64,000 nt of DNA from Whitmania pigra (taxonomy: Eukaryota; Annelida; Clitellata; Hirudinida; Haemopidae): NCBI GenBank assembly GCA_021613335.1, contig JAJTWR010000260.1, positions 2,351,001 to 2,415,000 of the forward strand, written 5' to 3'. The notes below the pieces were generated by a model that was given only the letters and a program-made list of their open reading frames with translations, was not told the origin of the DNA and made no database searches. Numbering within the stretch: position 1 is the stretch's first letter; every line of letters begins with the position of its first letter. Shown here in pieces: positions 20,014 to 42,530 of the stretch. The position numbers and the translations under genes were made by a program.

Positions 20014-22060
20014 CAGTGGTCCCCAAACCCCGGTCCGGGGTTTGTAGGGCTTAAGAACAACCGCTGCGATATCTATACCAGATAGAGGTCGCAATCAGCT
20101 CATTACAACAATATACACAGCAATATTAAAAACTAAGCATCTATTGTAGAGTAACCTATTAAAATAATAACAAAACATCTAAATAATTTTATTATTGCCT
20201 GAGGATTTGCTATATTCACTATCTTCGCTAACCATCACCACACGAGCAAAACTGTTCAGTTCACTGAATGGTTATATATCAAGAAAACTAAAATGGTCCT
20301 TTTGTGTCGACATATGCACAGACGGAGCTGCTGCCATGACCGGACAACTGTCAGGTTTAACTGCTCGGATTAAAGAGGTTGCACCCGAAAGTGAATCTAC
20401 TCATTGTATCATTCACAGGTAAATGCTGGCAAGTCGAAAATTGTTGCCGGAATTAAACAGCTTATTGATTGATGTTATTGAAGTTATTAACCTCATTTTG
20501 ATGGAAGCACACGCCATTAACTCGCGCATGTTTGATCAGCTTTGTGAGGAGATGGACGCAGAGCATAAAGGCCTGCTTTTACACACAGAAATAAGATGGC
20601 TATCCAGAGGCAAATCGCTAACCAGAGTAATTGAATTGCGAGAGCCATTGCAAAGATTTCTCTCAGAAAAGAAGTCACCGTTGGCAGCACATTTCGGTGA
20701 CAATGTATGGGTCGCAAAACTAGCTTACCTGTGGTTACTAAATACTCCGCCTTGGAGCTCCGACAGGGATCCTCAGAGGAGTTTCCCCCGTCTTCAAACG
20801 TTTCGGCCCTTTGAGTCTCCTTACGTTTTCGGGGGGCGGGCCGCATCCGGTGATCAGCCGGATGTCCCTGTCGGTTTGGTCTTGCTGGACCCAACTCTTA
20901 CCGCCGGCTTTGAGAGGCACTCGTTGGCCTTGTTATGCCGGTCACTTCTGCCTGGACTGGAGCGACTGCGCAAGCTCTCAATGGCTCCTTCATGTCGCAT
21001 GCTGTCTGTTTGTCGCCTGCAAACTTCGACTATGCGGGGCTCTCATTGGCCTTGTTATGTCGATCGCCTCCACCCCAGTTTGCCTACAGCGGTCATGCAA
21101 GCTCTCAGTGGCTTCTTCACACCGCCTTAATATATGCAAACTGGGCCTTATAATTTCTTTGTAGCGGCAGCCGGAGATAGAAATTTTCGGGACTCGACAG
21201 CGGGCCTTTTCGAAGCCGCGGTTTGGACCGCAGTTCATGTTGCTTCGCGAGTCCGCGGTCGGCCCATTTCTCCCGACAACACCGCGTCTCTCGGCCAATG
21301 GTTTGGCCCCGTCGTTCGGTGGATCATTCATACCGGAGACCGACGGCTTTCCCCGGTTTCGTGTAGTGGCCTGTTAAGACTTCTTCTGGCTTCTCATATG
21401 CCAGATCCAGAATTCAGCCTGCTCAACGAACTCAATCCGTCCCTTCAGTGGAAAATGACCAACTGTTTTCAAGTTGGCAGACAAAGTAGCTGCATTTAAA
21501 GCCAAACTGGAGTTGTGGGGAAAGCGCGTGAACAGAGTCATTATGGACATGTTTCAAACATTAGCGGGGATTTTATGCGAGACTTAAATCCGCGTTGCCA
21601 TTTCCGGCATCCTATCTTTGTGAAGCGGGGTTTTCTGCAATGATAGCAACCAAAACAAAACAACGGAATAAACTGGACATAAGCAACACACTTCGGATGT
21701 CATTGTCTCCGATTACCACCAGATGAAAACGTCTCGTTGCAAAGAAACAAGCTCAGGGTTCTCATTGATTTAGCGTTCTAATGAGTTAAATTTTAAAATC
21801 ACTTTATATTCATTTTGTGTGTAACTGTATGTATTTTGAAGGCATATTTAAATACAATTTCAAATCACTTTATATTGTTTTGTTTGCGTAACTGTATGTA
21901 TTTTGAAGAAATGTGTAAATACAGTTAAATTAAAGTTAGTAAATCAAAACGATCTAAAATATAAACAATCAACACCCCTTCCCCCCCTCCACCGAGCGGG
22001 CCGCGGTAAAATTATCAAACATTGACCGGTGCACAGCAATAAAAAGATTGGGGACCACTG
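20014..22060 (+). mobile_element. hAT element with intact ends and 8-bp target duplication
   Basis: Ends are CAGTGGTCCCCAAAC on the left and ttggggaccactg on the right, flanked on both sides by the identical 8-mer tattatat (20006-20013 and 22061-22068), as hAT elements leave. The plus strand carries pieces of a Charlie/ZBED-like transposase. These are WSFCVDICTDGAAAMTGQ (about 20300), EIRWLSRGKSLTRVIELRE (about 20590) and, after an insertion, LCEAGFSAMIATKTK (about 21620) followed by LRMSLSPITTR. The BED finger is missing and there are stops and shifts, so it is not autonomous. The 3' region holds a 70-bp near-tandem duplication (21790-21930). Confidence 0.88.
20735..21413 (-). mobile_element. 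RLE-LINE 3' end inserted in the hAT
   Basis: Almost the same sequence as 41860-42530 in the opposite orientation, beginning with gttactaaatactccgcc and ending at atgccagatccagaat. Only the last coding bases and the 3' untranslated region are present, so it is a strongly 5'-truncated insertion. It splits the hAT transposase between the KLAYL and LNELNPSLQ segments. The long open frames on both strands here are accidental. Confidence 0.85.
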
Positions 22061-31313: not shown

Positions 31314-31970
31314 GTTTACCTAGCATTAATATCTAAGATACTCCTTTTACTTTTAGTCGTTATGTATGAAGCCGATTACCGTGAAAAACATAAAATCATG
31401 GTTTTCTTCTATATTTTTAACGATAAATATTAAAATTTAACAAATATTATTTATGTTGTATACGTATTGTTTATGTAACAAATATCAATTATTAAAATTG
31501 AATTTTAGATTATACAATATAAATACAATCTATATTTGGTAGAAATATTTAAAATGCGACTATCAAAATTTAGAGACTGATTTAAAAAATTAGGAGTGTT
31601 TTATCACACAGACATTAGTCTCCTTAAACCAGTGGTTCTCAAACCCCGGTCCGTGAATCAAATGGTACCGGCCCAGCAAGCACAAGAAATCGGGACCCGA
31701 CCGGGTCCCACGCGGGAAAAAAAGCAGGGCCCGCTTCGGCAGCCCAGCGGGGCCATGCCGGGTTTGGCCGCGGGCACCAGTCGGGTAACTCGCTGGGTTC
31801 CCGCTGGTTTGTCTCTGTGGGCACCACACGGGCCCCGCATTAGTTGCCCGGCATCATTAAGCACGGGTTGCCCAGCCCAATCCCTATATCATTAATGACG
31901 AGTTTCCCAACAATATATGTAAGACTTAAGAATACAAATTTTTGGATTACATCAAGTTTATTGAAAAAAT

Positions 31971-33220
31971 TCAGCTGTTATTAATTAAATTAATTTTTTT
32001 CTGACTGCCAGCTCCTCTGTCTCTGGCATTTCCAAGCCACTTGCGAAGTTCCAACTCACAATCTTGGCTGGTTGCAGCTGAAGTGCTTGGGTTCCTTTGT
32101 ACTACCCCTAAAATTTTCCAGATGAAAAGATTAATAATACTGCTAATCTTATTATTACTCTATAATTAAGGTTAATTAAAATTCAATTTATAGTAGCATC
32201 AAACCAAAGTGTTAATCAACAAAGTTACAAAAAGGAAACCAGTTGACTAACCAAACACAACATTAAACATTTCGGCTTGTCGAAAAGCCTTTTTGCCATG
32301 CTGTCCCGACAAATTGCACTTTCGACTCATTTCATCCGTCAGCAAATGCTTCATAAGCCTCCGGATGGTGGTCTCAATGTTATGCCCTCCATTGGATGCC
32401 AGAGCAGAAATCTGAATTGAGAATTAGAGTCATTAAACTAATTTTTAAAATGTTGATTTTATACCAACCAATTGGTTTTTAATTCCAACATCCTTTATAA
32501 GATCTTCAATGCTTGCAAATAAGCAATCACTCCGAATTGGCAAACTAATTCCTTCCGGAATTTCAGCATTAGTAACCATGTTGTTTTGCAAGCTCTTTGC
32601 AATCATATCAGGAGATCTCTTAATCATCTCTGGATTTGCTATTAAGAGCCTAATAGCTTTATCCAAATCTGTTTTGAAGCAACATATCAAGAATGAATAT
32701 GAATTTAATTGTCAATAACAATTATCATAACAAGTCTAGCTCACCAAGGGTGCTAGATGTTAATACTTGGGGAAAGGGATGAGGTAATTCTGAGTGATGT
32801 GATTGAGGTGACTGAGATCGAAATGAAGGAGAATGGTGGACCTGAAACACTTCTTTTGGAGGAGGAATTGGCTTATTTATTTGAACATCCTTTGGTTTTC
32901 TGAATAATTTAAAATTGCAATTAGCTAAACAGATAACATATAACAAGTTAAAAAACAAATTTTAAAACATATAATATTCGCAATATGTTCGAATGGGCAC
33001 ACCACAGTTTCAATGAAACAACTTCTTCATCACTACTTGAATCTATCCTCCTTTTTGATCTGTAAAAAATATTGTTAAAATAAATCCAGTATTGCACACC
33101 GTTAGGAATATATCAGTCTTGTATACTTTCTTCTTTTTTTTTCAATGACATCAGTTTCAGAATCGATGTTCGATGTCTCCTCAGCCAATTTTGTCTTTGC
33201 TCTGGCATCCATAACATCAT
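31971..33220 (-). CDS. DUF4806-domain protein, 5' end not found
   Basis: Six consecutive exons in transcription order: 33220-33127, 33059-33006, 32899-32745, 32668-32469, 32411-32252, 32107-31971. All have consistent phases and encode about 265 residues. The N-terminal half is basic and Ser/Pro-rich (EKKRRKSKRRIDSSSDEE, then FRSQSPQSHHSELPHPF), suggesting a nuclear protein. The C-terminal part matches the DUF4806 pattern: ALASNGGHNIETTIRRLM, LLTDEMSRKCNLSGQHGKKA, and a final VVQRNPSTS followed by LRKWLGNARDRG. DUF4806 proteins are uncharacterised and multiply in animals with many transposons. A minus-strand AATAAA sits just after the stop. The open exons suggest a recently functional gene. 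The 33006 donor (GTGGTG) is weak, and the start codon lies upstream, perhaps lost in the repeat region. Confidence 0.72.
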
Positions 33221-33279
33221 CTGAATCATGAAAAGCAATACACATTTTGTTATATTATTTACAAACTATATTTCATTTA

Positions 33280-33475
33280 GTCCCCTCAAGCCAAAGTTGT
33301 GCATTTTATAGTCTTATTGGTTCAAAGAAGAGTTCTAGAATCATTTGGCAAATCAGGAATAACATGCTAAAGAACCTTCAATAAGTCTGTTGTGGCTTTA
33401 TGACAAATATTATTAGACAGCCCAACGAGCAAGCTTTTCAGTTATGTTAAACTCATAAGTTTCAAGATTTGGATC

Positions 33476-33476
<1 letters not shown>
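33280..33476 (-). pseudogene. Decayed LRxWA/DLLKxL coding module
   Basis: Read on the minus strand across two frames with stops: ITEKLARWAV, then NNICHKATTDLLKVL, then IPDLPNDSRTLL. This order (LRxWA, a DLLKxL helix, LPxDxRTLLxTP) is one I recognise from the N-termini of uncharacterised transposon-associated proteins of cnidarians and insects. It lies just upstream of, and in the same direction as, the DUF4806 exons, and is cut by the (TAA)n tract. Confidence 0.4.
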
Positions 33477-36115
<2,639 letters not shown>

Positions 36116-36123
36116 AGCTTCAC

Positions 36124-37934
36124 CAGGGTCGGACTGGCTTAAAAAAACGGCCCGGGAAATTTGGTCGTGTCGGCCCACTTCATAGTTTCATATAAATTTT
36201 TTCGATAATTTAATATTTTACTTATTTTCAATTTAATTTAGTTTTTATATAGTTTTCTTTAGTTTCTATAATTACTTCATATATAATAATAAAATTTTAA
36301 AGTTCAAAAAACTACTTTAAGTTGCAAGAATCTTTTTATTTATTACATGTTCAAATTCGTAATTATGCAAAATAACTTTAAACAGTTAAATAACTGTAAA
36401 ATTAAACATAAGAAACACTAGTCTAAAATTTCTATTCATTGTTAACTAGTATAACAGCTTTTTCATCGTTTCACTAGTCGATGCTAAAACATCAATGATT
36501 TCATTATTATTGATTCTTGAAAGAATGTTCTTCTCACAAGACATCGGCATGAATGATTGTAAAGTTGATTGGCTCAGCAAATTTCTTAATCTGTTCTCAC
36601 TCAGGTGCTGCAATGCATCGCTAGGCATTCTTTTCAAAATTTCTGCAAAATTTCTTGGATCTAAACAAGATAAATCAGCGTAAAGACAACCATGCTCAGA
36701 GAATCTCTGTTTTAAACTACTAATTACTTGATCCATAACCAGTGAACATTGACACAAAATTTATCTTTCGCACTTTCAAGTGGTTGGTTGACTATAATTC
36801 TTTTTCTTTCAAAACCGTCTGCACTTCAATGTCGATATTTCTTTTTTCTAGTTCACTGTTTGCAATTTTTTTAATTTGTAGCTGCTTGAAAAATGGAATC
36901 AAAATTTTTATCTACTTTGCTTAATTCAGTCTTGAACCATCTTCATCTTATAGGCTCGTAGGATATCCATTCCAATTGGTTGCAAATATTCCTATAATGT
37001 GTTCAAATATTTTCAAAAATAATTGTGCCGTTAGAATAAATTCAAAACTTGTCAATGAATCTAACAGAGCTTTTGCTCTGTATCGGACACCATTATTGAA
37101 TTTGTTTGAAGTAGAAATATCATGAAATGTTTGTAGCATGTCAATGTACAAAAAGTCGATAACTTGGGTTTCTTGAAGGTTTGATTAAGAAATTTCCAAA
37201 TATTTTAGTAAGAGCTCTGCCTTTTGCCCACCAACAGGTTTCACCAATTACAGATATGTATTTCAATTTGCTAAATTCACACCAAACAATCAAAAACTGA
37301 ATCGTAAATATGATTCCCGAAGAAAGACTGCACATGTGTTTAAAACCCCAAATAAAGTAACAACTTCAACCGCTTTTTCAGTGACGTCACCCATTACCAA
37401 ATTTAAGGCACGGGCATAACACCATACATGAATCTGACCCGGAGAAGCTGTATTTAACAAGGCATTGAATCTATTGTATTGACCTTGCACATTAGACGCA
37501 CCATCGGTAGAATTGCCAATACATTTACTTACATCAATGCCTAACTTTTCAAAGACAAACCAAGCCACAAACCAAATCATACATTCCTTTTCCAGTCGTT
37601 GATGTGCAATTGACTGTAGCTATTACACGTTCGTGTAAAAAAATATTTTATTAAAAAATAATATAATTTTGCGTTAAAATTGACGTTATAAATTATTAAA
37701 ATTGCGTTATAACCATTGACGTCGGAAGCTTATTATATAAATATAATTAGACTCCTTATGTAATGACTTTGTTGTTTCAGTTTGGTTATTTTTAATACAA
37801 ACTATTATTTGAAGCTATTTATAATCAACGGTAATTTCAGTTAAAACTAAAAATGTAATAACTTTCTTTTGGCGGTTGGCGGCTACCGGCCCACCGGGAA
37901 ATTCCCGGTGTCCCGGCGGCCCAGTCCAAGCCTG
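36124..37934 (-). mobile_element. hAT element (ZMYM1/DUF4371-type transposase relic)
   Basis: Ends CAGGGTCGGACTGG and ggcccagtccaagcctg are inverted copies, flanked by the identical 8-mer agcttcac at 36116-36123 and 37935-37942. The minus strand carries a decayed transposase of the DUF4371 kind found in ZMYM1-like proteins: GIDVSKCIGNSTDGASNVQG (with a catalytic Asp in TDGA), HVWCYARALNLVMGDVTEKA, VFLRESY, then WWAKGRALTKIFG and a C-terminal SENRLRNLL region near 36600. Frameshifts separate the pieces. The zinc-finger N-terminus is absent. Confidence 0.85.
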
Positions 37935-39719
37935 AGCTTCACTCTTGTCAAATCAACAATGAATCCACAATGAATCCAATTTTACCCGCGCTGTTGTATA
38001 TAATGAAACTAGTTATACATAACTAAACAATTTTACAAACAGAGTAATTGCAAGGATTCACTAAATGTTTACATTACAGAAATATCATTAATTATGAATA
38101 AAATTTATTTTATACATATACACATTATTTTCCGGCGGGGATAAGCCACTGGGCTATGCTCGGGACCCTTGTGGGCTCTTTGGCATATTAATGAGTTTCT
38201 TTCCCCTATGGGTCCCGTATCTATCCCGAGACTTTGCCCGGACGTAACCCGCTGAACTGGGCAAACTGGGCAACCCGCCTTCAACCTTCCTGGCGGTGTT
38301 TGCTGGGGGGCCGCCCAAGGAACAATAAATTATTTCCATTTCATTAAAAAATTAAAATATGATAGTTTGTAGGGCTTGAGAACAACCGCTACCATCTCTT
38401 TCTTAGCGTGTTCGGTAAAATTATTGAGTCTGATTTTGTAACATTTTAAGAATAACGATTAACTTACCAAAAAAAATAATACACTTTTTAATTAAATTAA
38501 ATTTTTAATTTAAAATAATTTTTAATAATTTAATTAAGTGATTACAGTAATTTCATATTTCATTGTGGGACACTGAATTTCGCCTCACAACTTCACCAGG
38601 CTCCAATCGTGTAGGAAATTATATCATTAATTTTTGTAATTTTATTATGTAATATTCAACTCCACTCCCCCCCGGTCCGCGGTAAAATTATCAGGCATTG
38701 ACCAGCGAAAAAAAGGTTGAGGACCACTGCCTTAAACCACTATAAATTAACGTTGTTATTTTAAGTTTGTTTTAATTTTTACAAATCAGGATCTTTACTA
38801 AAGGACGTTTAGCTTTATATCATTTAATCGCTCAGTGGTTCAGTCACTCACCGCTTAGCACACACATTGCTACAACACAGAAATCGCTACATTTTTTCAT
38901 CACTCCCGTGCTCAGCTCTTTCAACTCGCCTCAGTCCATAGATTGTTCAATAAACTCTCTACTATAATTTCTATTGGGTGTCAGTAATTTACACGATTAG
39001 TGACAATCCCATATCTCCGCTATGTTTAGATTAGAACTTTAACCTATTTTGAGATTGAGTTTCTTCAAATTTCATGTTTTGTTATGTCGAGTTAGAGTTA
39101 TTTGAATTCTATTAAATTTATATTACAGTTATATGTAAAAATGTATTTAACTCCAACATGCACAAGAGCTAATGAATCTGAATAGGAAGCTAATCAAAGA
39201 AAAGCAAAAAGAAAAACAGCTGACAGATTGAAGAAGTTAAGAAAATGAACATCAAAAACAAGAACATGTTCAGAAACGCAGAACGAAATCTTTTGAATCT
39301 CGTGAAGAAATTATGGAGAGGAAAGCGATAAGAAGTGGTGGTGACAGTGCTCGAAGAAATAAAAAAGATTAACATAAAAGACAAGAACGAATTCAAAACG
39401 TACAAGAAAATACTGTATTGCAGAATCTCTTGAAGTTATGAAGAGGAAAGCAAAATGAAAAAGCTGACAGATAGAAGAAGTAACGAAGATGAACATCAAA
39501 GAGAACTATAAGAAGATGCGGAGAACCAAAAGACAAAGACCATATGAAGCTGAAGCGGATACTTTTTATATGACATTGAATGAATTAGATTTGGAAACAC
39601 TGCTGTGCCTTCTTTTAACAAACCAAACTCTTCCAACAAGTTTTCGAAATGTTAATGATGAAAAAGTTTCGCTTCAACATTTATCGGCAACTCCTGATCT
39701 GCTTCAAGATTTATTCATG

Positions 39720-41891
39720 TTGAACGTAGAGGGGAAAATATTTTTCTCTATCATGGCATCGAGGCTCACGGAGTTCGTGATGTCTAATCAGTACGTGGAC
39801 ATTTCAGTCCAAAAGGGAGGCATTCCAGGTGTACCCGGTTGTATCGAGCATACCTCGATGATCTGGGAAGCTATTCAGAGAGCCAAGAGGAACCGGCTGA
39901 GTTTGTACGTCGTGTGGTTGGACCTAGCGAATGCATACGGATCGGTACCACACCAGCTCCTATGGAAAACATTGGAAGCCCATCATGTGCCTCAGCCCAT
40001 TATTCACATCCTTCAGGAATACTTTAACGGGTTCATGATGCGGTTTTCCACCAAGACGTACACTACAAGGTGGGTGCCTCTGGAGGTTGGTATAGCAACG
40101 GGGTGCACAATTTCTCCTTCCTTATTCGTACTGGCGATGCAGATCCTACTGAAGGCAGCCGGGTCTCGTACTCCAGAGGCGCACATTGGTAAAGGGGTGT
40201 ACATGCCTCCAATAAAGGCATTTATGGACGACACCACCCTGATCATGAACAGGAAGAAGGTTGTCCAAAATACCCTGGACAAGTTTAACAACCTTCTAGA
40301 GTGGTGTCGAATGGCTTTCAAACCTGCGAAATCCAGAAGTCTTGCCCTAGTTAGGGGAAAAATTCGCGAGGACGTGTCCTTCGATGTGGCGGAGCAGCGA
40401 ATCCCTACAGTATCCGAAGAACCGGTGAAAAGCCTTGGAAGGGTTTTTGACAAGTCTCTCACCGACAAGAGCATGCAGGACGCCATACCCCAGCAAACCA
40501 TTAGAGGACTGCAGGCGATTGAGGCGGCACCGCTGCAAGGGCGGTTCAAAGTGTGGTTGCTCCAGTTCGTGCTCCTTCCAAGACTTCTCTGGCCGTTAAC
40601 CATCTATGAGATTGGCTTGTCAGTGGTCGAGAAGCTAGAGAGGAAAGTTAACCGATACACCAGAAAATGGCTAGGCCTACCTCCAGCGCTGTCATCGGTA
40701 GCCCTCTACAGTAGGAGCACGAGCCTGCGACTACCACTAAGGTCCATCGTGGAAGAGTACAAACTCTCCAAAATAAGAACGCAGTGGATGCTCAACAACT
40801 CCGCGGATAGCAGGATCCGTGAAGTCAAGCCACTGCTTAGATCTGGAAGGAAATTCCGAGCGCAGAATGAGATCGACGAATCAGTTGCCGAGCTGATGTT
40901 CGAGGAAGTGAGAGGTCCTACCCAGACGGACCGTCATACAGTAGGATGGAACCACCTGCCAAAATGGTCCCAGGCGAGCTCATCAGTCAGAGCCGCCATG
41001 ATTATTCAGGAAAGGAGGCGAAAAGTGGAACAGGACCGAGTCACGATGGCAGTTTAGCAGTCACACCAGGGTAAGTGGACAACGTGGGAAGACGTGATGC
41101 AACGATCCCTTACCTGGAGCGACATGTGGAAAATGTCCCCGCTCCGACTTGCCTACGCGATAAGGTCAGTGTACGACCAGTTGCCCTCCAGGGACAATTT
41201 GCAGAAGTGGGGTATGGTGGAAGACACCAAATGCCGGCTCTGCGGCGGTACTGAGACACTGCACCACGTGCTCAGCAATTGCACGTATGCCCTTGCCAAC
41301 GGTCGGTACACATGGCGACATAACCAGGTCCTTCGAGAAGTGTGCGAAGCCGCAAAAGCAGCAGTCTCCAAAGCAAACTCGCGTACGATCGCAAATCAGC
41401 GAAAGATTTACTTCTTGCTCGAGGGCTTCGCACACCTCTGCAAAAAGAGATGTCAAACCCCAAGGCGAGACATTCTTGCAGAGGCAAACGACTGGACCAT
41501 CGCAGCCGACTTGGAAGGAATGAGGCACTACCCCCAGGTGCTGATAGAAAGTGGCAAGAGGCCGGATCTAGTGCTCGTATCGCCGTCGACGGATGCCATC
41601 ATTCTGGTGGAGCTGGCGGTTCCGTGGGAGGACAGGCTGCAATACAGCAATGCGCTCAAAGCAGACAAGTATGCAGATCTAACGATGGACCTGGAAGCGA
41701 GAGGATACCGCACAGACCTCTACCCTATCGAGATTGGCGCAAGGGGCGTGGTCGGCAAGTCGACTTACGCTTTCCTCACTAAGATCGGATTGTCAAGCCG
41801 AGAGAGAACAAAGGCTATGACAAGGATGTCTGAGGCCGCTGAAGCGGCTTCATTCTGGATCTGGCATATGAGAAGCCAGAAGAAGTCTTAA
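39720..41891 (+). pseudogene. LINE reverse transcriptase/endonuclease ORF, one in-frame stop
   Basis: Encodes the RT palm and thumb, a zinc knuckle and a restriction-like endonuclease. RT marks: GGIPGVPGCIEHTS, WLDLANAYGSVPH (first catalytic Asp) and FMDD at 40221-40232 in place of the usual FADD/YADD. The CCHC finger CRLCGGTETLHHVLSNC is at 41232-41282. The endonuclease has RPDLVLVSP followed by ILVELAVPWED (PD-(D/E)XK type, about 41559-41625). The C-terminus is rich in Arg, Ser and Met. A single TAG at 41055-41057 divides otherwise continuous reading; the paralogous copy at 53251-54352 has CAG there. The upstream open frame back to 39489 belongs to the host Helitron, not to the LINE. Confidence 0.82.
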
Positions 41892-42530
41892 CAGGCCACT
41901 ACACGAAACCGGGGAAAGCCGTCGGTCTCCGGTATGAATGATCCACCGAACGACGGGGCCAAACCATTGGTCGAGAGACGCGGTGTTGTCGGGAGAAATG
42001 GGCCGACCGCGGACTCGCGAAGGAACATGAACTGCGGTCCAAACCGCGGCTTCGAAAAGGCCCGCGATCGAGTCCCGAAAATTTCTATCTCCGGCTGTCG
42101 CTACAAAGAAATTATAAGGCCCAGTTTGCATATATTAAGGCGGTGTGAAGAAGCCACTGAGAGCTTGCATGACCGCTGTAGGCAAACTGGGGTGGAGGCG
42201 ATCGACATAACAAGGCCAATGAGAGCCCCGCATAGTCGAAGTTTGCAGGCGACAAACAGACAGCATGCGACATGAAGGAGCCATTGAGAGCTTGCGCAGT
42301 CGCTCCAGTCCAGGCAGCAGTGACCGGCATAACAAGGCCAACGAGTGCCTCTCAAAGCCGGCGGTAAGAGTTGGGTCCAGCAAGACCAAACCGACAGGGA
42401 CATCCGGCTGATCACCGGATGCGGCCCGCCCCCCGAAAACGTAAGGAGACTCAAAGGGCCGAAACGTTTGAAAACGGGGGAAACTCCTCTGAGGATCCCT
42501 GTCGGAGCTCCAAGGCGGAGTATTTAGTAA
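39720..42530 (+). mobile_element. RLE-LINE (R2-like design), 5'-truncated copy
   Basis: Best copy of the LINE family seen six times in this window. It starts inside the reverse transcriptase reading frame and ends at tatttagtaa, with a 639-bp 3' UTR (41892-42530) and no long poly-A. The 4-bp word catg occurs on both sides (39716-39719 and 42531-42534), a plausible target duplication. Its GC content is clearly higher than the surroundings. Confidence 0.85.

Follow-up and report, generated by a model that had tools for sequence, protein, structure and literature searches.

A TRC-type transposon with a DUF4806 gene, nested in a hAT element of Whitmania pigra

A DUF4806 gene lies inside a split hAT element in a 64,000-nt stretch of the Whitmania pigra genome (contig JAJTWR010000260.1, positions 2,351,001 to 2,415,000; the whole stretch is called the window below). 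Positions 31622-38737 of the window hold four insertions, each nested in the one before: an outer hAT, a second transposon, a 2-kb repeat with a TAA run, and an inner hAT. The second of these, at 31672-38307, is almost certainly an animal cut-and-paste transposon of the TRC type (Transposons Related to CACTA) that inserted into a 462-bp hAT. It carries the remains of a transposase gene and a DUF4806 gene in the same orientation, and the latter is very probably a working gene of the element itself. The best overall explanation, to which we give a probability of roughly 85%, is a two-gene TRC-type transposon with DUF4806 as one of its own genes; a TnpA-like role for DUF4806 has about even odds. 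The window copy is ordinary and dead: its transposase core is gone, it contains one premature stop, and it has received further nested insertions. The finding is the family, which we traced through the assembly (178,173,256 bases in 381 contigs). Genome loci that were read are given as L-numbers, contigs as C-numbers and proteins as P-numbers.

Borders, ends and empty site of the inserted element

In the window, the 8-mer CCTTAAAC is found at 31622 and 38730 only, both on the + strand, and not on the - strand. As an earlier note on this DNA had observed, the pair surrounds hAT ends: the duplication encloses CAGTGGTTCTCAAACC... and ...GGTTGAGGACCACTG, and the outer hAT has both an 8-bp duplication and CAGTGGTT-type inverted ends. 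That this hAT is interrupted was also correctly seen, although the edges proposed (31653 and 38364) are displaced; copy alignments place them at 31671 and 38308/38310. Without the insert the hAT measures 462 bp (31630-31671 plus 38310-38729).

The empty site is precise in all three other hAT copies read. L029, L030 and L031 run across the joined flanks without the insert (96.9-98.5% over 64-67 bp), and the two halves are parts of one element. L030 is a clean full element of 468 bp with the duplication TTCTATGG at both sides, and L031 is 380 bp long with flank bases equal at 7 of 8 positions. For L029, the right end was not found within the locus stretch read.

The insert recurs in the genome with the same borders, in tens of copies. 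The left-junction query gave at least 43 matches (best 40 of 116 candidates scored), 28 of them with their start exactly at window position 31672 and another 4 no more than 3 bases away; apart from the window's own match, which crosses the junction, the remainder start further in. The right-junction query gave 41 matches, 26 of them ending exactly at 38307, and 3 others, which are the hAT copies, starting at 38308. The termini CCCAGCAA...TTGCTGGG form CCC..GGG inverted ends, not the CA..TG ends of plant CACTA elements; a few right ends (e.g. L037, L042 and L045) are off by at least one base from TTGCTGGG.

Target duplications were compared in the 20 distinct copies, among the loci read, in which exact motif matching identified both ends; copies missing either motif, and the duplicate L020, were left out. 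An exact 2-bp duplication (TA, AT, AA, AC, TT or GG) flanks 17 of the 20; in the other three the duplication is 6 bp, 1 bp and 0 bp. Between the left and right flanks of different copies, 2-bp agreement was 0.163 of 380 pairs. The border alignment proposed in the earlier note thus yields both termini and duplications, and its inference of movement at the DNA level is borne out by the element's own ends, its 2-bp duplications and the empty site. Its GC-rich borders (31664-31900 and 38130-38320) are likewise real, but they are the subterminal regions of the inserted element. In the GC-rich ends of L009, 28 repeated 8-mers were counted (shuffled mean 6.3, maximum 23, 500 shuffles); the repeated words include CGGGACCC, CTGGGCAA, ATTAATGA and the terminal CCCAGCAA.

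Two miniature derivatives, L038:4020-4435 and L047 (292 bp), have both ends, no gene and a 2-bp duplication AA each. L010 (C39) and L020 (C129) are one element with identical flanks on two contigs, which points to a recent duplication, or to two haplotypes assembled separately.

The two genes and the layout of the locus

The transposase is best preserved in L024 (C329), which has an open frame of 714 codons and encodes 688 aa from its ATG. This element is 3,793 bp long with part of DUF4806 missing, from which we judge a full element to be about 4 kb. The earlier note had described a decayed LRxWA/DLLKxL module in the same direction as the DUF4806 gene. This module is the ELARWA...DLLKVLK...LPNDARTLLGT portion of the L024 transposase; it is decayed in the window (33262-33475) and open in L016, L022 and L024. 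Other copies keep different parts of the protein, the N-terminal part in L016, L009 and L022 and the core in L013, L014 and L021. Common transposase deletion borders (residues 183 to 417-420 kept), with DUF4806 retained, are found in L010, L013, L014 and L021, so that a deletion derivative seems to have multiplied. Of 22 matches obtained when the whole genome was searched with P0025, the Hydra relative, the L024 locus alone is full length. Divergent transposase matches were seen at C326, C344 and C310:3098373.

The motifs C303-x2-C306 and H499-x3-H503 of the CACTA clade (CMCT) lie between D284 and E523, the catalytic residues as assigned by pattern, and are invariant in 60 sequences. Among 60 transposase relatives, Pfam at E 0.01 detected DUF4218 in 46 and Transposase_21 in 2. 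The predicted fold of the core is RAG1-like, and the C-terminus is predicted to be BAH-like both in L024 (2551-2925, P0001 560-684) and in Hydra P0025 (560-689); no Pfam BAH match was obtained among the 60 relatives. A sequence search of solved structures with the transposase gave no useful match. Scans of viral contigs with both proteins, and of prokaryote genomes with the transposase, found no relative.

DUF4806 (Pfam PF16064, cut-off 25 bits) was recognized at 28.2 bits with the last two exons joined and at 26.4 bits with the window protein, and at E 0.01 in four of five protein versions. The PF16064 profile had no match in this genome or in 14 control genomes, a result that is uninformative because introns split the domain here. 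A solved-structure search with DUF4806 gave no useful match, and the profile search gave no BEN row. The gene on the minus strand of the window is multi-exon and mostly intact, as had been claimed, with five coding exons rather than the six proposed; the GT-AG borders are predicted from the sequence, and one premature stop lies at the join of the second and third coding exons. The exons are free of stops and frameshifts in L022 and L049, out of 16 aligned copies; L022 keeps all splice sites, and the first donor is changed in L049. All four DUF4806 exon queries matched in 13 of the 20 two-ended copies, a whole transposase in 1 of the 20. In L019 (1438-2135), three tandem copies of the third coding exon are spaced ~275 bp apart.

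Within the element the two genes follow one another on the same strand; in L024 the DUF4806 splice acceptor is ~40 bp past the transposase stop. A donor GTGAGT (once GTAAGT) is present in the 5' region in 16 rows; as two of them, L028 and L055, overlap, these amount to 15 distinct places. Through such a donor, either gene could be joined to a non-coding first exon. Most copies have an in-frame ATG shortly before the DUF4806 acceptor. The L024 transposase open reading frame (ORF) also contains two GTRAG sites, one in phase 0 at offset 174 and one in phase 1 at offset 907. The phase of the latter fits reading into DUF4806, but it is preceded by TT; splicing from inside the ORF into the DUF4806 acceptor could use this site, weak as it looks.

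We found 30 DUF4806 loci in the genome (56 matches, 44 of 44 candidates scored), in a search that reaches close relatives only, so that an unrelated host DUF4806 gene is possible. Of these loci, 29 are in or beside element copies, and 26 adjoin element ends identified with the junction queries. The remaining four comprise L050 and L053, which have weaker left-end matches; L049, which has a transposase remnant; and L051, with no element part nearby. DUF4806 and the transposase module therefore belong together in one mobile unit, as the earlier note had suspected. The unit is not of an undescribed kind, as had also been proposed: TRC/CACTA elements have been described (PMC1636069). L049 represents a second subfamily, in which the DUF4806 protein is 64% identical to that of the window, and gene order and orientation are the same. 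Its end reads by eye as CCAGCAAAC and gave no blastn end match.

The 7.1-kb interval additionally holds a high-copy repeat (about 33478-37948) and the inner hAT, neither of which figured in the earlier note. The 2-kb repeat has at least 52 matching stretches in the genome (best 40 of 209 candidates scored). It is bordered at 33478-34142 by ~660 bp of almost pure TAA repeat, which appears to be part of it, judging from the copy L059, where a similar TTA run is present. The inner hAT has both an 8-bp duplication and inverted ends, and its unbroken site is present in L060. Inspection by eye shows fragments of a hAT-like transposase frame in it; the piece searched against Pfam had no match. Elsewhere in the window, 39468-41891 is a GC-rich (about 51-55%) reverse-transcriptase element with RVT_1 and zf-RVT matches in two adjoining frames, and near-identical frames in opposite orientation at 20990-21373 (-) and 41892-42275 (+) appear by eye to belong to one shared window repeat.

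Table 1. Coordinates of the nested elements and their parts in the window
Feature	Position	Strand	Remarks
TRC/CACTA-type transposon	31672..38307	-	genes on minus strand
Target duplication GG, left copy	31670..31671	.
Target duplication GG, right copy	38308..38309	.
End 3' of genes	31672..31920	.	CCCAGCAA terminus and GC-rich subterminal region
End 5' of genes	37949..38307	.	GC-rich subterminal region and terminus TTGCTGGG
DUF4806, first coding exon	33127..33245	-	in-frame ATG at 33245 (start codon a guess); acceptor AG at 33222-33221
DUF4806, second coding exon	33003..33059	-
DUF4806, third coding exon	32745..32899	-
DUF4806, fourth coding exon	32469..32668	-	domain start
DUF4806, last coding exon	32247..32411	-	with stop codon
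Transposase remnant, LRxWA/DLLKxL module	33262..33475	-	P0001 residues about 108-179; core and C-terminus absent
Outer hAT, left target-site duplication	31622..31629	.	CCTTAAAC
Outer hAT, left piece	31630..31671	+
Outer hAT, right piece	38308..38729	+	38308-38309: right-hand GG of the insert's duplication
Outer hAT, right target-site duplication	38730..38737	.	CCTTAAAC
Later insertion, TAA repeat and 2-kb repeat	33478..37948	.	edges approximate; interrupted by inner hAT
Inner hAT	36124..37934	.	ends CAGGGTCGGACTGG / CCAGTCCAAGCCTG
Inner-hAT duplication	36116-36123 and 37935-37942	.	AGCTTCAC

Function of DUF4806 and alternative explanations

Between the two subfamilies, DUF4806 shows the codon pattern of purifying selection. 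The ratio of nonsynonymous to synonymous change (dN/dS) was 0.36-0.42 for ten of the 15 aligned copies (L052 and nine from the main group) against L049. Changes at codon positions 1/2/3 numbered 42/36/67 and 43/36/68 in two copies compared with L049. When the changes were shuffled among equal bases, the observed synonymous count was reached in 0.3-0.95% of 2000 shuffles (four copies), and the same test expected 4.2-4.8 stops where 0 were seen. Within the main family and with L052, five pairs with few changes gave dN/dS values of 0.57, 0.75, 0.51, 0.67 and 1.77, which are weaker or neutral, as expected for copies decaying after insertion.

We propose that the element encodes a one-exon RAG1-like DDE transposase and, from a downstream spliced gene, a small DUF4806 protein, the latter probably translated from a transcript that is alternatively spliced or spans both genes. 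The DUF4806 protein would bind the GC-rich repeat words near the two termini, hold these termini together so that the transposase can act, and regulate the element promoter. The transposase would cut at the CCC ends and insert with a 2-bp stagger, and its BAH-like tail may bias activity towards certain chromatin. Of these steps, what is seen directly are the products of cutting and insertion, namely the ends, the duplications and the empty site.

Several observations weigh against this proposal. Both genes are whole in no single copy read: L024 is without the end of the third and the fourth DUF4806 coding exon, and L022 is without most of the transposase. With the 5' donor, the first ATG past the DUF4806 acceptor is out of frame. 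The L024 transposase scores below the Pfam DUF4218 cut-off (15.3 vs 27 bits). Identity to L049 is alike in exons (0.76-0.79) and introns (0.77-0.80), so that constraint is visible only in the codon pattern, where frameshifted copies were counted in the codon frame of the window. A set of 5.8 billion proteins, searched with a single DUF4806 sequence (E 0.001) and a five-sequence alignment (E 10), yielded no relative, and the link of DUF4806 to the element is thus shown in one genome and two subfamilies. The PF16064 profile had no match in this genome or in 14 control genomes, a result that is uninformative because introns split the domain here. A solved-structure search with DUF4806 gave no useful match, and the profile search gave no BEN row.

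DUF4806 could be a host gene captured as a passenger, with no part in transposition. According to an account of plant CACTA elements, these often carry host gene fragments (PMC8195511), and the DUF4806 gene resembles captured genes in having introns. It also outlives the transposase among the two-ended copies, and its exons are overall no better conserved than its introns. We nevertheless regard capture as quite improbable, given the codon-level selection between subfamilies, the gene order and orientation common to both, and a position equal to that of the second gene of SmTRC1, the Schistosoma mansoni TRC element; only L051 among the 30 loci has no element nearby. A different possibility, which departs from our proposal in the role of the protein only, is that DUF4806 works for the element as a repressor or a chromatin anti-silencing factor instead of an end-binding helper. 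Plant TnpA is described as repressing the unmethylated promoter and reactivating the methylated one (PMC1636069), numerous deletion copies retain DUF4806, and the transposase tail is predicted to be BAH-like. Nothing here separates such a role from end binding, and both may hold, as they do for TnpA; as a replacement for end binding we find it unlikely, though less so than capture of a passenger.

The earlier note had also raised the possibility that the hAT captured the gene, and the hAT halves and the DUF4806 unit might have moved as one element, since the outer CCTTAAAC duplication brackets everything. This is hardly credible: at other sites, between different flanks, the insert shows ends and duplications of its own, and the hAT is present in three places without it. 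The hAT was the target, and the DUF4806/transposase unit is a separate transposon. An origin of the LRxWA module in the inner hAT (36124-37934), with its nearness to DUF4806 due to chance, is just as implausible. Although the inner hAT does carry pieces that look by eye like a hAT transposase frame, the module lies outside it, which rules it out as the inner-hAT transposase, and is contiguous with the element's transposase in L016, L022 and L024.

Comparison with known systems

DUF4806 has been reported as a BEN-type DNA-binding domain (PMC11075544, citing Pan 2023). The element places DUF4806, a domain of unknown function, in a definite setting, offers a reason why it proliferates in certain genomes, and makes it a candidate, open to experiment, for the helper that animal CACTA-type elements have been proposed to use. 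The BAH-like tail of the transposase is a possible link of transposition to histone marks.

DUF4806 is listed as expanded in two Hydra species (69 and 54, compared with 0-6 in the five other species of the same table), and the Hydra list that contains DUF4806 also includes many transposase domains (PMC7642931). DUF4806 is further reported as enriched in an ambrosia beetle (PMC13270666), and one mosquito gene is named DUF4806 (PMC11445403). Tentatively, and at somewhat less than even odds, DUF4806 across animals may be, or derive from, the TnpA-like partner of TRC elements, with the expansions in Hydra, on zebrafish chromosome 4 and in the ambrosia beetle as traces. On that reading, a RAG1-fold transposase with its own BAH-like chromatin reader and a DNA-binding partner of the BEN type would make up a transposition system of two components that responds to chromatin. 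Annotators should ask whether DUF4806 expansions consist of transposon genes before interpreting them as adaptations of the host. Among the titles, abstract openings and passages listed by our literature searches, none tied DUF4806 to a transposon; most subscription journals and Repbase lay outside them, and a description elsewhere is possible; the link between DUF4806 and TRC elements is apparently new.

Plant CACTA elements (En/Spm) resemble the present element in having a transposase and a second protein, and short repeats inside both ends. There, TnpD is described as the transposase and TnpA as binding the subterminal repeats (PMC8195511). They differ in their CACTA ends, and TnpA candidates were sought by another domain, Transposase_24; DUF4806 is not mentioned in the available part of that account (PMC8195511). 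Fungal CMCT-clade transposons with TET/JBP genes (PMC12730594) likewise combine a CACTA-type transposase with a second gene acting on DNA, but the accessory gene encodes a dioxygenase, and the described EnSpm cases end in CAC..GTG and are flanked by 3-bp duplications (PMC12730594). The likeness to RAG1, Transib and ProtoRAG lies in the predicted fold of the transposase core; identity is 7-16% in aligned rows, the ends are of another type, and the BAH-like tail is predicted here.

The closest known system is SmTRC1, which founded the animal TRC group (PMC1636069), and the element described here fits TRC in each structural point tested. TRC elements are described as having CCC ends (in an Aedes example, CCCAGTCAAC), with 2-bp duplications in 7 of 14 SmTRC1 copies (PMC1636069). 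SmTRC1 is 4.5 kb long and has a CACTA-type ORF and spliced 3' exons encoding SmTRC-PrA; the ORF of this protein is 681 bp and contains a stop in the clone, and a large share of its transcripts probably derives from truncated copies (PMC1636069). It was from this one protein without recognized relatives that, in 2006, animal CACTA-type elements were proposed to have a TnpA-like helper (PMC1636069). The two systems share CCC inverted ends, 2-bp duplications, a CACTA-type transposase and an intron-containing second gene 3' on the same strand. The shared end sequence is 54 bp in SmTRC1 and about 8 bp here, and whereas the second protein of SmTRC1 is the orphan SmTRC-PrA, the equivalent gene position is occupied here by a protein of a named family, DUF4806.

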